A program made the translations under genes and the position numbers. This document shows, one piece after another, positions 12,010 through 46,281 of a stretch of DNA of 64,000 nucleotides (position 1 is the stretch's first letter; every line of letters starts with the position of its first letter). The notes below the pieces were generated by a model that worked only from the letters and a program-made list of their open reading frames with translations, was not told the DNA's origin and ran no database searches. This stretch comes from Nitrososphaerales archaeon (GTDB lineage Archaea; Thermoproteota; Nitrososphaeria; Nitrososphaerales; CADDZS01): assembly GCA_030041355.1 (NCBI GenBank), contig JASHNZ010000058.1, positions 124,001-188,000 of the forward strand. Direction: 5' to 3'.

Positions 12010-12117
12010 GCGAGGTTAGTCTAGCCTGGTCAGGACAGGGGCTTCCCAAGTATAGTCAACGTCGAAATAAATGTTCAGAAAGAGCCTCTAACGCGGGTCC
12101 GAATCCCGCACCTCGCA
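12010..12117 (+). tRNA. tRNA-Gly(CCC) with a 34-nt intron after position 37
   Basis: Acceptor strands GCGAGGT (12010-12016) and ACCTCGC (12110-12116) pair fully, with A as discriminator. The D stem GTCT/GGAC and T arm GCGGG-TCCGAAT-CCCGC are regular. The anticodon stem GGGGC (12038-12042) pairs with GCCTC (12084-12088) only if 12049-12082 is removed, giving a seven-base loop with anticodon CCC at 12045-12047. The intron sits at the canonical 37/38 site, and its borders can form a relaxed bulge-helix-bulge (three of four central pairs). The T loop has C instead of U at its second position. Confidence 0.88.
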
Positions 12118-15316: not shown

Positions 15317-16432
15317 TCATCGTGGTTTAAGGGAGGCACGCATTTTCGCAATATTCCGCGCGTACGGCTTTCGCAGTATTCCTGCTTCGCAAACGATTGC
15401 CGTGATTAAGTTCGGTGGCGTAATGTCAAAGGCGGGATTGAAAACAAGAATGTCATCAGGTGCAAGCTGCTTTTCCGCGATCCTTCTGACTTCGTCCGCA
15501 GAGCGTTCTTCGATCTTGACTTTTTTCCAGCTTGTCACAAAATCGAAGCTGGATACAGGTGCCGCGACATAGAAGGGCAAATGGTGTTTCTTGGCGAGCG
15601 TCGCAATCTGGTATGTACCAACTTTGTTGAATACATGGCCATCTTTTGTTATCCTGTCTGCTCCAACAATTACACCGTCTATGAGCCCCCTTTGCATTGC
15701 GAGTCCAACAGCAGTATCGGGAAGCAAAGTGACGTCAAAACCATCATTGGCTAATTCAAAAGCGGTAAGTCTCGCGCCCTGAAGAACCGGTCTGGATTCT
15801 GTTGCGAAAACTTTGATCCTCTTTCCTTTTTCCGTAGCAGCTCTTAAGACTCCAAGCGCAGTACCATAACCCACAGTCGCCAATGCTCCTGCAATCTGCT
15901 GAGCGCAGAACGAATCTGCCTCTCAATTACAGTGAGTCAGGATACTGGCATTGTCTTTGATAAGCACTTGGCCGATTTTCGAAAGCTCTTTGTTTACGTT
16001 CACATCTTTGTCAGCCAGAAGCTTCACGAATTCAACAAGCTTTGCTTGCTTCTCCTTGGAGCTCATTTTCGAAGGCAGCGCACTGAGAAACTCTAGTGCG
16101 GACTTGACACCCCAGGATAGGTTCACTGCAGTGGGTCGAGCGGAGATCAGGGCCTTCGATTCTCGCTGAACCTTTGACGCTATTCGAGCATCGCTCTTTC
16201 TTTCACGCATTCCCTCAGTAAAGGATAAGGCCACTCCCATCGCCCCAGCGACCCCGATGGCAGGCGCTCCTCTGATTTGCATCGATTTGATTGCGTGGAT
16301 CAGTGAACGTACAGTTCTGCACTTCACGAAACGGAACTCCTTCGGAAGCAGCGTCTGGTCTACGATTCTAACAGAGCTGGTCTTGTCTTCCCAATTTATG
16401 GTTCGTTGAACAAAGAAACTTACTTTCTCCAA
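15317..16432 (-). CDS. mtnA: MtnA/aIF2B-like isomerase, interrupted by a 33-nt BHB intron
   Basis: S-methyl-5-thioribose-1-phosphate isomerase family; archaeal relatives also include ribose-1,5-bisphosphate isomerase. Exon 1 (16432-15927, TTG start, EKVSFFVQRTINW) carries LIDQTLLP-like, RGAPAIGVAGAMG and ends at ILTHCN; exon 2 (15893-15317) continues AGALATVGYGTALG and GVIVGADRI. The catalytic Cys (about residue 168) and Asp (about 248) are present. In genomic sequence the frame hits UGA right after the Asn of HCNAG; removing 15894-15926 restores the motif in frame and yields about 360 residues. The start lies 4 bases from the divergent endonuclease-like gene. Confidence 0.87.
15894..15926 (-). 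other. Bulge-helix-bulge intron in mtnA pre-mRNA (33 nt)
   Basis: Read 5' to 3' on the minus strand: helix strand CUGU (15932-15929), 3-nt bulge AAU (15928-15926), inner strand UGAG, a 5-bp hairpin GCAGA/UCUGC with loop UUCGU, inner strand CUCA, helix strand GCAG (15899-15896), 3-nt bulge AUU (15895-15893). CUGU pairs with GCAG (one G-U) and UGAG with CUCA. Cutting after the second base of each bulge, as archaeal splicing endonucleases do, removes exactly 33 nt including the UGA and joins AA to U, giving Thr-His-Cys-Asn-Ala-Gly. A CCUG/CAGG outer helix lies beyond a small asymmetric loop. Confidence 0.85.
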
Positions 16433-16436
16433 GCTT

Positions 16437-17144
16437 ATGAAGCAACAACTCCTCCACATTTTCAATTCACCATCTAATCCGTTTATAAACGAGGTAGCTG
16501 AGAAGAGCTTCAAAGCACCAAACACGGCGTCGCGATTATTGCCCACGAAAGAAATTGCCTCATCTACCGAACTGGAAAGTTCGCAGTCGCTAGATAGACA
16601 AGAGGAGATCGAGCAGGTAATCTCCGCGCTCTTTTCCAAGAAAGCGAGACATGTTATCTTAGAGAAGAAAGAAGATGCAATTCTTCTGGAATCCAAAGGA
16701 TTTGGAATCAAAGAAGACGCTTCCTTCTCTCTTCGAGATTACGAAGTACTCTATCTGATGTTCACGAAAAAGCTCAAGCTAACCATCGATGGTAAACAGG
16801 TTTCTTTTGAAAAATACGTGAATTTTGCTTCAAAGCGAGATAAGGACGCTTGGGCCAGATTTCTAATTTTCAGAGATCTAAGAACGAGAGGCTACGTGGT
16901 ACGAGAAGGGTTTGGTTTTCCAATTGATTTTAGGGTTTATGATCGCGGAGATTTTGGCGCAAAAGCTGCCAAGTACATTGTCTTCGGTTTGAACGAAGGA
17001 AAGACCATGAGCATTGCTGATCTAAAAGAAATTATCGATCAAATGGCTAGGATGGGCAAGGAAGCGGTCGTGGGGGTAGTTGAACGCAGAGGCGAAGTCA
17101 TCTACTACAAAGTCGGCAAGTGGCGTCCCGTTAGGCCGCAATAG
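16437..17144 (+). CDS. endA: tRNA-splicing endonuclease family protein, probable structural subunit
   Basis: The C-terminal half follows the EndA fold: FIFRDLRTRGYVVREGFGF-type strand-helix, then FRVYDRGDF (the catalytic Tyr position, about residue 168), YIVFGL, and GKEAVVGVVERRGEVIYYKV with a Lys near the expected site (about 206). The catalytic His that normally sits in a GHAEYLV-like segment is replaced (AKAAKYIV), suggesting a non-catalytic partner as in heterotetrameric endonucleases of Crenarchaeota and relatives. The N-terminal 60 residues are weakly conserved; a TTG at 16539 could be the real start. It is transcribed away from mtnA, whose transcript contains a BHB intron. Confidence 0.78.
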   Translation: MKQQLLHIFNSPSNPFINEVAEKSFKAPNTASRLLPTKEIASSTELESSQSLDRQEEIEQVISALFSKKARHVILEKKEDAILLESKGFGIKEDASFSLRDYEVLYLMFTKKLKLTIDGKQVSFEKYVNFASKRDKDAWARFLIFRDLRTRGYVVREGFGFPIDFRVYDRGDFGAKAAKYIVFGLNEGKTMSIADLKEIIDQMARMGKEAVVGVVERRGEVIYYKVGKWRPVRPQ

Positions 17145-17239: not shown

Positions 17240-17944
17240 ATGAAGGCCGTGATTCTTGCAGGAGGTTTCGGAAAGAGGCTCAAACCACTCACTGATGATC
17301 GCCCCAAGCCCATGGTTGAAGTTTCTGGGGTTCCTATACTCGAGTGGCAAGTGAATTGGTTGAAGGACCACCAAGTCAAAGAGATAATCATCTGTGCAGG
17401 CTATCTCAAAGGTTCCGTGATTGACCACATTGGCAGCGGACAGAAGTTTGGTGTAAGCGTGGGTTTCGCAGTTGAGGAAGAGCCTCTTGGGACAGGGGGG
17501 GCTCTGAAAAACGCTAGAGTGATGATTTCGGAAGAGCAATTTTTGGTTATGAATGGTGACATTCTTACCAACCTAGATCCTATGCAATTGACGCATCTCG
17601 TTCGGCCCGAAGGCGATGCCATGTGTTCTATCGCGGCCGTCCCCTTGCGTAGTCCTTACGGCATAATCGAAATAGACAACGGACACGCGAAAGGTTTCAG
17701 GGAAAAGCCAATTCTAGGTGAATATTGGATCAATGCCGGAATTTATTGCCTTACCAGATCTGTTTTAGATATGCTCCCGGACAAGGGAAGCTTGGAAGAG
17801 ACCACGTTGCCCGAGCTTGCAAGAGATGGAAAGATTCGAGTCTGCAAATACAATGACGTATTATGGCGATCTATTGATACCCATAAGGACATTGAAGAAG
17901 CTCAAAAAGAATTCCGCGATCTAGTTCCAAAGCGCGGAGCCTAG
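17240..17944 (+). CDS. Sugar-phosphate nucleotidyltransferase
   Basis: Makes an NDP-sugar from NTP and sugar 1-phosphate. The N-terminal signature LAGGFGKRLKPLTDDRPKPM, the second GTGGALKNA and the MNGDI metal site (about residue 97) are typical of the NTP_transferase family; WINAGIY and the C-terminal WRSIDTHKDIEEA fit short (about 235-residue) enzymes without a left-handed-helix domain. Substrate could be mannose- or heptose-like; the sugar kinase at 24615 makes the latter thinkable but not shown. Its stop overlaps the GTG of the next gene by one base. Confidence 0.88.
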   Translation: MKAVILAGGFGKRLKPLTDDRPKPMVEVSGVPILEWQVNWLKDHQVKEIIICAGYLKGSVIDHIGSGQKFGVSVGFAVEEEPLGTGGALKNARVMISEEQFLVMNGDILTNLDPMQLTHLVRPEGDAMCSIAAVPLRSPYGIIEIDNGHAKGFREKPILGEYWINAGIYCLTRSVLDMLPDKGSLEETTLPELARDGKIRVCKYNDVLWRSIDTHKDIEEAQKEFRDLVPKRGA

Positions 17945-18897
17945 TGCGCTTTACCAAGCTTTTTGTAGCCTATAACGATAGTCTGTCAAAGTTATTCCAT
18001 GGCAGAGATAGACGAAGCAGGAGTAAATCTAGCCTGAAGGACTGGATTTTACTCATCCGACCCGCCAATTCCATAATGGTCGGTTTTGCAGTAATCGTAG
18101 GAATAGCTGTTGCTTCTCCGTCGGGGCATCAGGTTTCAAATATCTTTAGCTTTACTTCGCTTTTCGGATTCCTTACGGGATTTTCGATTTCGTCGTTTTC
18201 GATGATAACTAATGACGTTTATGATTATGAAGTAGATAAGATAAACCAACCAACAAGGTCGGTAGCCAGTGGCCGAATCCGACTGAACGATGCCGTGATT
18301 TACTCGATCCCGTTTCTCATAATCGGACTGGGTTCTAGCGTATTGATTGGTCCTACAAACTTGGCAGTGGCAGGAGTTTTCGCCCTAATTGGATGGTTTT
18401 ACAACTATCAAGGGAAAAGGTTCGGTCTAGGTGGAAATTCGCTTGTGGCGCTGTCCCTTGCGATTCCATACATTTTCGGTTCACTTGCACTTCGAAATTA
18501 TTCTCTTAATCTTGCCTACCTCCTTGCTCTAACTTCATTTCTGGCTGGAATGGGAAGAGAAGTCTTGAAGGGCATCTCAGATATAGCCGGGGACAAGATC
18601 AGAAGCATAAAATCCATTGCGATATCTCATGGAGTGGGGAAGGCAAAATCAACTGCCGCCGCATTTTTTCTTCTTGCTGTGGGATCGAGCTCGTTTCCAA
18701 TCTTGTCAGGCATACTTGGAAAGGGTTTGCTAGTATACGCGGTGTTGGTTTCGCTTACTGACGCAGTGTTTTGCTTTCTAGCTGCCAGAACCTTGAGAAT
18801 TAAATCAGAATCAGAATCTTTGCGTCTCAAGAAAATCGCTTTAGGAGGTATGATGCTTGGTCTCCTTGCATACCTTGCGGCCGGTCTTTCTGCTTAG
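17944..18897 (+). CDS. UbiA-family prenyltransferase, digeranylgeranylglyceryl-phosphate synthase
   Basis: Multi-pass membrane enzyme (about eight or nine segments) that adds the second geranylgeranyl chain to geranylgeranylglyceryl phosphate in archaeal lipid synthesis. Both aspartate-rich motifs are present: NDVYDYEVDKINQPTR (about residues 97-112) and the second DIAGDK (about 212-217) after MGREVLKGISD. A soluble N-terminal tail of about 35 residues precedes the first membrane segment. GTG start overlaps the upstream stop by one base, so the two genes are an operon. Confidence 0.88.
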   Translation: MRFTKLFVAYNDSLSKLFHGRDRRSRSKSSLKDWILLIRPANSIMVGFAVIVGIAVASPSGHQVSNIFSFTSLFGFLTGFSISSFSMITNDVYDYEVDKINQPTRSVASGRIRLNDAVIYSIPFLIIGLGSSVLIGPTNLAVAGVFALIGWFYNYQGKRFGLGGNSLVALSLAIPYIFGSLALRNYSLNLAYLLALTSFLAGMGREVLKGISDIAGDKIRSIKSIAISHGVGKAKSTAAAFFLLAVGSSSFPILSGILGKGLLVYAVLVSLTDAVFCFLAARTLRIKSESESLRLKKIALGGMMLGLLAYLAAGLSA

Positions 18898-18984
18898 TGA
18901 TTAAGCAAAGCCTAAATTCATTGAATCAGGAAGACATCCATTTCCTCAACTTAAAATCCTGTAGGAACCGATGAAATACATCAC

Positions 18985-20172
18985 ATGATGCTTTCCGAAA
19001 GAGTACGGCCAAGAAAAATTGCATTGCTAATTGGAAATGAGCAATCGAGAGTCCAGCTGATAAAATGGCTGAAAAACTGGAAAATAGGGTCCAAGGCAGT
19101 ACTCCTCATCGGCCCGCCAGGCGTCGGAAAATCTACTTCAGTTTATGCAGCGGCCTCCGAGCTCGGATATTCGGTAGTGGAATACAATGCTAGCGATGTC
19201 AGAACGAAGAAGAGGTTATCGGAGGCACTTAGTGGAACACTGGAGAATGCATCACTTTTCGGGGAGCAAGAAAAAATGCTCATTTTCCTCGACGAGGTAG
19301 ATGGTCTATCTGGCAGGTCCGATTACGCCGGAATAGAATTCATTCTCGAGTTTATCGAAAATGCTACTGTGCCCGTTGCAATGGCTGCAAATGTTGAAGA
19401 CGACCCAAAGCTTAGAAAACTCAGCCAAAAGTCGCAATTGATTCATTTTGGACCCGTTAATGAGGATTTGATATACATATATTTGAAAACAATTGCAAAA
19501 AGGGAAGGCCTTCCCGTCTCTGAAAAGGCATTGCAACAGATTGCGGTTGCATGTCGCGGCGATGTCAGATTTGCCTTGAACATGTTTCAAACACTAATTG
19601 GCGACAGTCTTAGCAGCTTTCAAACTGACAAACAATTCTTTAGTGAAGCATCAGCAATGGCTGCAATCTTGGACTCTAATTCATTGGAAGAAGCCATTGC
19701 ACGACTGAGGCAATATGATGCCTCGCCCCTGGAAAAAGTGCGCGCCATATTCGACAGTATAGTTTCCGCAAAGTCTGTTTCTCCCGAAGAAAGGGCGCGG
19801 GCACTGGAGCTGATCTCCGACGCTGATATATTGCTGCGACAGATCAACAAAAATCAGAGGTGGCGATTGCTCAGATACTTGGATAGATACCTTGCCCTTG
19901 CATTAATCTCGAGAAAATTGAAAGCTGCGGATTCGAGTATTCCATGGAACCTTAGACTCGCAATATGGAACGATGGAAGAGTAACGAAGGAGTTTCTGAG
20001 CGAGCTACCAGAAGATTTCCATGTCGGGAAAAATGAGTTCGCGGTATTCTACCTGCCCTACTTCTCCTTTTACTTTAAAAACCGAAGTAGTGACTTGACT
20101 AAATTTCTTCAAAAATATGAATTCGGTGATTCGGAAAAGCGTGTAATGCTAAAGATTGCGACTGAGCACTAG
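18985..20172 (+). CDS. rfcL: Replication factor C large subunit
   Basis: Clamp-loader ATPase subunit that opens PCNA at primer ends. Walker A GPPGVGKS (about residues 43-50) and Walker B LIFLDEVD (about 98-105) are intact, followed by the sensor/lid region and the helical collar. The 395-residue length is usual, but the C-terminus lacks an obvious PCNA-interacting (QxxLxxFF-type) motif that many archaeal RfcL proteins carry. The small subunit gene is not in the window. Confidence 0.93.
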   Translation: MMLSERVRPRKIALLIGNEQSRVQLIKWLKNWKIGSKAVLLIGPPGVGKSTSVYAAASELGYSVVEYNASDVRTKKRLSEALSGTLENASLFGEQEKMLIFLDEVDGLSGRSDYAGIEFILEFIENATVPVAMAANVEDDPKLRKLSQKSQLIHFGPVNEDLIYIYLKTIAKREGLPVSEKALQQIAVACRGDVRFALNMFQTLIGDSLSSFQTDKQFFSEASAMAAILDSNSLEEAIARLRQYDASPLEKVRAIFDSIVSAKSVSPEERARALELISDADILLRQINKNQRWRLLRYLDRYLALALISRKLKAADSSIPWNLRLAIWNDGRVTKEFLSELPEDFHVGKNEFAVFYLPYFSFYFKNRSSDLTKFLQKYEFGDSEKRVMLKIATEH

Positions 20173-46188: not shown

Positions 46189-46281
46189 CGCCGCCGGACC
46201 GACTTGAACGGTCGACCAACGGATTAACAGTCCGCTGCTTTTGGCATCAGTGAGTATTCTACCAATCTGAGCTACGGCGGC
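46189..46281 (-). tRNA. tRNA-Asn(GUU) with a D-arm intron of about 19 nt
   Basis: Acceptor GCCGCCG/CGGCGGC (46281-46275 with 46196-46190), discriminator G, T arm GACCG-UUCAAGU-CGGUC and anticodon stem GCGGA/UCCGU with loop CUGUUAA (anticodon GUU) are all regular. The D stem is not: GCUC needs GAGC, but only GA (46259-46258) is next to the loop and GC (46238-46237) follows 19 bases later. Removing 46257-46239 completes the D arm. UUGG and CCAA flank the insert and could pair as a splicing helix. The precise junction may shift by 1-2 nt. Confidence 0.87.

Follow-up and report, generated by a model that had tools for sequence, protein, structure and literature searches.

The window, by which we mean the whole 64,000-nucleotide stretch of Nitrososphaerales DNA analysed here, carries a gene of the splicing-endonuclease family that lacks the catalytic His and lies next to an interrupted mtnA gene. 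This raises the question of whether such a gene encodes an enzyme of its own or one half of an enzyme, and which RNAs that enzyme would cut. We are highly confident that the gene, here termed endA-beta, encodes the structural subunit of an (alpha-beta)2 endonuclease, the alpha subunit of which would cut the bulge-helix-bulge motifs (BHBs) of intron-bearing tRNAs and very probably that of the mtnA pre-mRNA.

The endA-beta gene and its partner

The gene and the codons of its catalytic positions are located as follows.

16437-17144, plus strand: endA-beta in the call that begins at the first ATG, 235 aa, predicted structural subunit of a splicing endonuclease
16938-16940, plus strand: codon of Tyr168, catalytic Tyr position retained (alignment with alpha subunits)
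16965-16967, plus strand: codon of Ala177, which replaces the catalytic His within AKAAKYIV (alignment)
17058-17060, plus strand: codon of Lys208, catalytic Lys position retained (alignment with alpha subunits)

A Pfam search placed the splicing-endonuclease C-terminal domain (PF01974) at residues 139-223 of endA-beta (E 3e-20) and also matched the N-terminal domain (PF02778, E 4e-7). Among solved chains in the PDB, the M. jannaschii endonuclease 1a79 comes closest by sequence (E 9e-17). An AlphaFold model of the protein, obtained with 33 sequences, has a mean pLDDT of 83; it is confident from residue 61, and residues 1-60 have low pLDDT. Comparison with Foldseek and VIA-align gave Z 21.3 and an rmsd of 2.0 Å over 168 residues for 1a79, and Z 20.0 for chain 3p1z_D of A. 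pernix. The structural subunit of N. equitans (3if0) was matched with Z 15.5 and an rmsd of 2.8 Å over 147 residues. The motif ERRGE (residues 216-220) is near-invariant and aligns with DADGD of 1a79. It is a candidate acidic L10-type loop, which may dock on the partner subunit.

To read the triad positions, we aligned 36 beta genes of the order with 35 alpha genes. The sequence-only reading had described an EndA-like protein that keeps the Tyr and Lys and has AKAAKYIV at the His position, and the alignment confirmed this with Y168, A177 and K208. A His that is shifted rather than missing is ruled out, as there is none between Y168 and K208. The His column contains no His in any of the 36 beta genes (P in 13, A in 11, S in 8, G in 3 and T in 1), and Tyr, His and Lys are present in 35/35 alpha genes. 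Consequently, the loss of His in the beta gene of the window is not due to chance. Beta genes from other classes likewise lack the catalytic His. Since this residue is gone, beta should be unable to cut. Two of the three catalytic residues, those at Y168 and K208, are fixed in 36/36 beta genes though the third is lost. This invariance of Tyr and Lys counts against a structural-only role, because catalysis in beta should not need either of them.

The genome to which the window belongs (G000; 2.74 Mb, 88% complete) contains exactly two PF01974 genes at this completeness, endA-beta and an alpha gene about 15 kb beyond the window. A gene for RtcB is also present.

C4:202703-202945, minus strand: alpha endA gene, triad Y118/H126/K157 intact
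C7:100179-101498, strand not given: RtcB gene

A second endA gene with an intact Tyr-His-Lys triad had been set beforehand as the test of a structural role, and it was found in this same genome. The alpha protein matches catalytic chains of Sulfolobus tokodaii, Aeropyrum pernix and Pyrobaculum aerophilum (E 2e-39 to 1e-34), with 2e-39 to 4e-39 for the catalytic chains 2cv8 and 3p1z. It carries the extra loop KPVGVSKPKQNEFDAP, whose K36 aligns with K44 of A. pernix and is invariant in 29 alpha sequences. This lysine of the crenarchaea-specific loop has been tied to broad substrate specificity and to the cutting of relaxed, non-canonical introns (PMC6379350). The proposal that endA-beta is the structural subunit of a heterotetramer is thus supported by an intact alpha gene that has the loop and the lysine of crenarchaeal catalytic subunits.

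The pair is conserved. Two endA genes were detected in 34 of the 41 related genomes and at least one in 40 of them; two were also found, among the matches listed, in the majority of the 151 genomes in a Pfam survey across the phylum. In this survey of the phylum, f33, f35, G215 and G308 were the cases with a single endA among the matches listed. G215 (98% complete) and G308 (95%) have one weak beta-like match each among the matches listed, and both have the mtnA intron described below; their alpha gene may be missing from the assemblies or may have diverged. One genome of the window's own family (G006, 94% complete) is alone among the 41 related genomes in having no endA match, and a match to mtnA is also absent, which reflects either an assembly gap or real loss.

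That endA-beta is itself an active homotetramer, with another residue standing in for His, is very improbable in spite of the Tyr and Lys that all 36 beta genes retain: none of the replacing residues is able to do acid-base chemistry, a complete catalytic alpha stands alongside beta in nearly every genome, and solved (alpha-beta)2 enzymes divide the work between their subunits in this same way (PMC6379350). As structural subunits of an (alpha-beta)2 endonuclease, two endA-beta copies would position a pair of catalytic alpha subunits so that their distance matches that between the BHB cleavage sites. Both sites would be cut by alpha, and the exon ends would then be joined by RtcB. We infer this assembly, and the cleavage of the substrates named here, from solved relatives. 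The substrates in G000 would be the intron-bearing tRNAs and very probably the mtnA pre-mRNA, the 33-nt intron of which is predicted to form a relaxed BHB.

Candidate substrates in tRNA genes and in mtnA

Two tRNA genes of the window are likely substrates.

12010-12117, plus strand: tRNA reading Gly-CCC, in which a long insert follows the anticodon on its 3' side
46189-46281, minus strand: tRNA reading Asn-GUU, with an enlarged D arm of about 20 extra bases

The enlargement of the D arm in tRNA-Asn(GUU) is possibly an intron, which would then be non-canonical; one tRNA with an enlarged D arm was found among the Rfam matches of the genome. Among all tRNA matches above the Rfam cut-off in G000, 12/17 exceed 90 nt because of inserts, mostly 3' of the anticodon, or long arms. 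The sequence-only reading had listed three intron-bearing tRNAs and one pre-mRNA intron in the window. The mtnA intron, the tRNA with an anticodon insert and the tRNA with an enlarged D arm stood up, and a third intron-bearing tRNA was found neither with Rfam (E<=0.5) nor with ARAGORN, which reported no tRNA in the window and missed both tRNA genes.

The neighbouring mtnA gene consists of three parts.

15927-16432, minus strand: mtnA exon 1, TTG start at 16432
15894-15926, minus strand: mtnA BHB intron, 33 nt, predicted endonuclease substrate (BHB geometry and comparison)
15317-15893, minus strand: mtnA exon 2 with stop (comparison)

This gene encodes S-methyl-5-thioribose-1-phosphate isomerase of methionine salvage and scores above the cut-off of TIGR00512 once spliced. 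The protein is interrupted between HCN and AGALATVGYG by an insert whose 33 nt are a multiple of 3 and contain an in-frame stop. We used the BHB rule of two 3-nt bulges around a 4-bp helix, with cleavage between the second and third bases of each bulge. In the window, CTGT of exon 1 pairs with GCAG of the intron, the bulges are AAT and ATT, and the inner helix is TGAG/CTCA. Cutting by this rule restores the mtnA frame, and the predicted spliced junction joins ...CACTGTAA to TGCAGGAGC.... The outer exon helix is broken by A-G and C-C mismatches in 19/19; since this helix is not contiguous, the mtnA BHB is a relaxed motif, a point that counts against the proposed role as a substrate.

An intron at the same site is present in families f1, f4, f5, f13, f14 and f17 of the order and in f31, f37, f41, f56 and f60 outside the class, hence at one identical position in 11 families and at least two classes of the phylum. 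We compared 31 distinct mtnA junctions with introns of 19-43 nt, often not a multiple of 3, and the protein was restored in all of them. The central helix formed in 31/31 junctions, and 97.5% of the helix cells were paired versus 85% in shuffles, with 0/500 shuffles as high. The helices show 46 double changes, 5/5 inner pairs have changed on both sides, and the covariation score is 0.51 compared to 0.26 in shuffles. Intron-free mtnA orthologs join exactly at the intron site, and both exons remain conserved. The length and the stop of the window's insert would also suit gene decay, a sequencing error or a site of programmed frameshifting or bypass, but such readings are extremely unlikely in view of so many junctions of variable length at one site where BHB removal restores the protein, of helices kept paired through double changes, of conserved exons and of orthologs joined at the exact position. 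The interruption looks like a rare archaeal mRNA intron of the BHB type, with predicted splicing, and the suggestion of a pre-mRNA intron in mtnA is to this extent borne out by comparison across genomes.

A search for the junction pattern in 398 genomes of the phylum returned 15 places, 14 of them in mtnA, and the reversed pattern returned 2. The only match outside the mtnA set, in G481, is not mtnA. A short mtnA frame in G175 (f9) was also rejected, as it results from a one-base frame slip without an insert. Outside the order but inside the class, a class-wide protein search revealed no intron-type broken mtnA frame among the matches listed.

Intron-free mtnA genes are nested among intron-bearing ones: G008 lies next to G007, and f37 includes G234 and G206. 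The mtnA genes of families beyond the class group together on a separate branch (SH-aLRT 98). The mtnA tree, which has an uncertain root and comes from a quick search with uneven sampling, requires at least eight intron changes. These data favour an old intron that has been lost repeatedly. The patchy distribution and the number of changes would also fit an intron that was not inherited from early on but spreads among lineages through insertion or transfer. We regard such spreading as possible but rather unlikely, because the genes from outside the class keep to their own branch and because intron-free genes nest within intron-bearing groups, as repeated loss would give.

The interval between mtnA and endA-beta

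The divergent arrangement of mtnA and endA-beta was confirmed, and the following features concern the interval between them.

16539-17144, plus strand: probable true endA-beta, TTG start, 201 aa
16480-16491, no strand assigned: palindromic TATA box CGTTTATAAACG, candidate shared promoter element, between mtnA and endA-beta and downstream of the called ATG

The starts of the longest ORFs of the two genes are separated by 4 bases (16433-16436), as had been described. Linked expression through this short spacer, which had been raised as a possibility, is not supported, since the spacer stems from an over-extended ORF. The ATG at 16437 is an unlikely start for endA-beta, given the low pLDDT before residue 61 and the in-frame stops that occur between the TATA box and the conserved beta part in 4/6 relatives. 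In these four relatives, the stops place the beta start downstream of the TATA box. In the window, TTG 16539 is the only in-frame ATG/GTG/TTG between the box and the conserved beta part, and it is probably the start. An apparent conservation of PFIN was rejected as a coding signal; it is the TATA box.

A TTTATA core was found in 7/7 compared genomes of the window's family, 34-87 bases from the mtnA start. The palindrome is kept in six of the seven: the full 12 bases in four, 10 bases in G001, and the variant GCTTTATAAAGC in G007, where the flanks have changed (GC..GC) and the symmetry is retained. We hypothesize that this conserved palindromic TATA box is a better basis for linked expression than the spacer. 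Judged from its symmetry, it could serve both mtnA and endA-beta.

The divergent pair was present in 20/33 scored genomes of the order and recurs outside the class in f31, f36, f41 and f60; the pair is therefore old. Within the order, scored intron-bearing mtnA genes adjoin endA-beta, with the exception of G027 (about 1.7 kb away). In f56, f37 and two f31 genomes the intron-bearing mtnA does not adjoin endA-beta, and in f6, f10, f12, f15, f36 and G008 the two genes adjoin but the intron is absent. Consequently, the neighbourhood is not specific to the intron. When intron and adjacency were compared on the alpha+beta tree, only 2 independent pairs lay on supported branches, and the link between the intron and the neighbourhood is suggestive at most. 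On the other side of endA-beta, UbiA-type and RFC-large genes follow in most relatives (window 17240-20172), and a nucleotidyltransferase gene (17240-17944) stands between endA-beta and these genes only in the window's family.

One symmetric TATA box might co-express the mtnA pre-mRNA, with its old intron, and the enzyme subunit, so that splicing capacity feeds back on mtnA and mtnA expression is tied to it. Such coupling would agree with the conserved core and palindrome, with the recurrence of the divergent pair within the order and in four families beyond the class, and with the position of the order's scored intron-bearing mtnA beside endA-beta. We nevertheless consider it improbable: the independent changes on the tree are too few, exceptions exist in both directions, and transcription from a palindromic TATA box may also run in a single direction. 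If true, it would constitute a regulatory mRNA intron in Archaea.

Relation to known endonucleases and mRNA introns

As the structural subunit of an (alpha-beta)2 endonuclease, endA-beta belongs to a kind already known for Thaumarchaeota, to which alpha2-beta2 endonucleases have been assigned in a review (PMC4090602). The nearest relatives that carry a name are two MAGs, one archaeal (Maxine3) and one from Nitrososphaeria. The pair resembles the (alpha-beta)2 enzymes of Crenarchaeota (A. pernix 3p1z/3ajv, P. aerophilum 2zyz) in having a catalytic Tyr-His-Lys subunit with the loop lysine and a partner without the catalytic His, in the separate genes for the two and in a host rich in tRNA introns. 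It differs in its lineage, here Nitrososphaeria, and in that the heterotetramer is a predicted one here. Unlike the 96-aa beta subunit of P. aerophilum, endA-beta has the N-terminal domain. With the structural subunit NEQ261 of Nanoarchaeum equitans (3iey_B, 3if0) it shares the fold and, we infer, the role, but the identity is 20% and the lineage is another one.

According to a paper of 2020, the intron in cbf5 of Crenarchaeota was the only additional mRNA BHB intron reported until then; to it the paper adds a BHB located in the 5' UTR of a Haloferax transcript (PMC7714728). A 2009 study of cbf5 notes that introns in other coding genes were at that time no more than predictions (PMC2738675). 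We found no report of the mtnA intron in the literature searched, which took in few subscription journals. Among archaeal BHB pre-mRNA introns, it appears to be a widely conserved case that had gone unreported. Like the crenarchaeal cbf5 intron (PMC2738675), it is short, of the BHB type and inside a coding sequence, often has a relaxed motif, shows clean lineage-specific losses and resides in a host with a hetero-oligomeric endonuclease. Unlike the cbf5 intron, it interrupts mtnA, and its range covers 11 families in more than one class of the phylum; splicing has been demonstrated for cbf5, whereas that of mtnA is predicted. In G000, cbf5 is uninterrupted.

For its lineage endA-beta is ordinary, and its importance rests on the probable substrate next door. 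If spliced, mtnA would be the second host gene for BHB introns in archaeal coding mRNAs, and its intron would offer the (alpha-beta)2 enzyme a natural substrate other than tRNA. In many archaeal genomes, annotation would then likely have split mtnA into two fragments. With an intron kept at one site over 11 families, and with clean absences inside a genus and inside a family, comparison could test how old archaeal mRNA introns are and how they are gained and lost.
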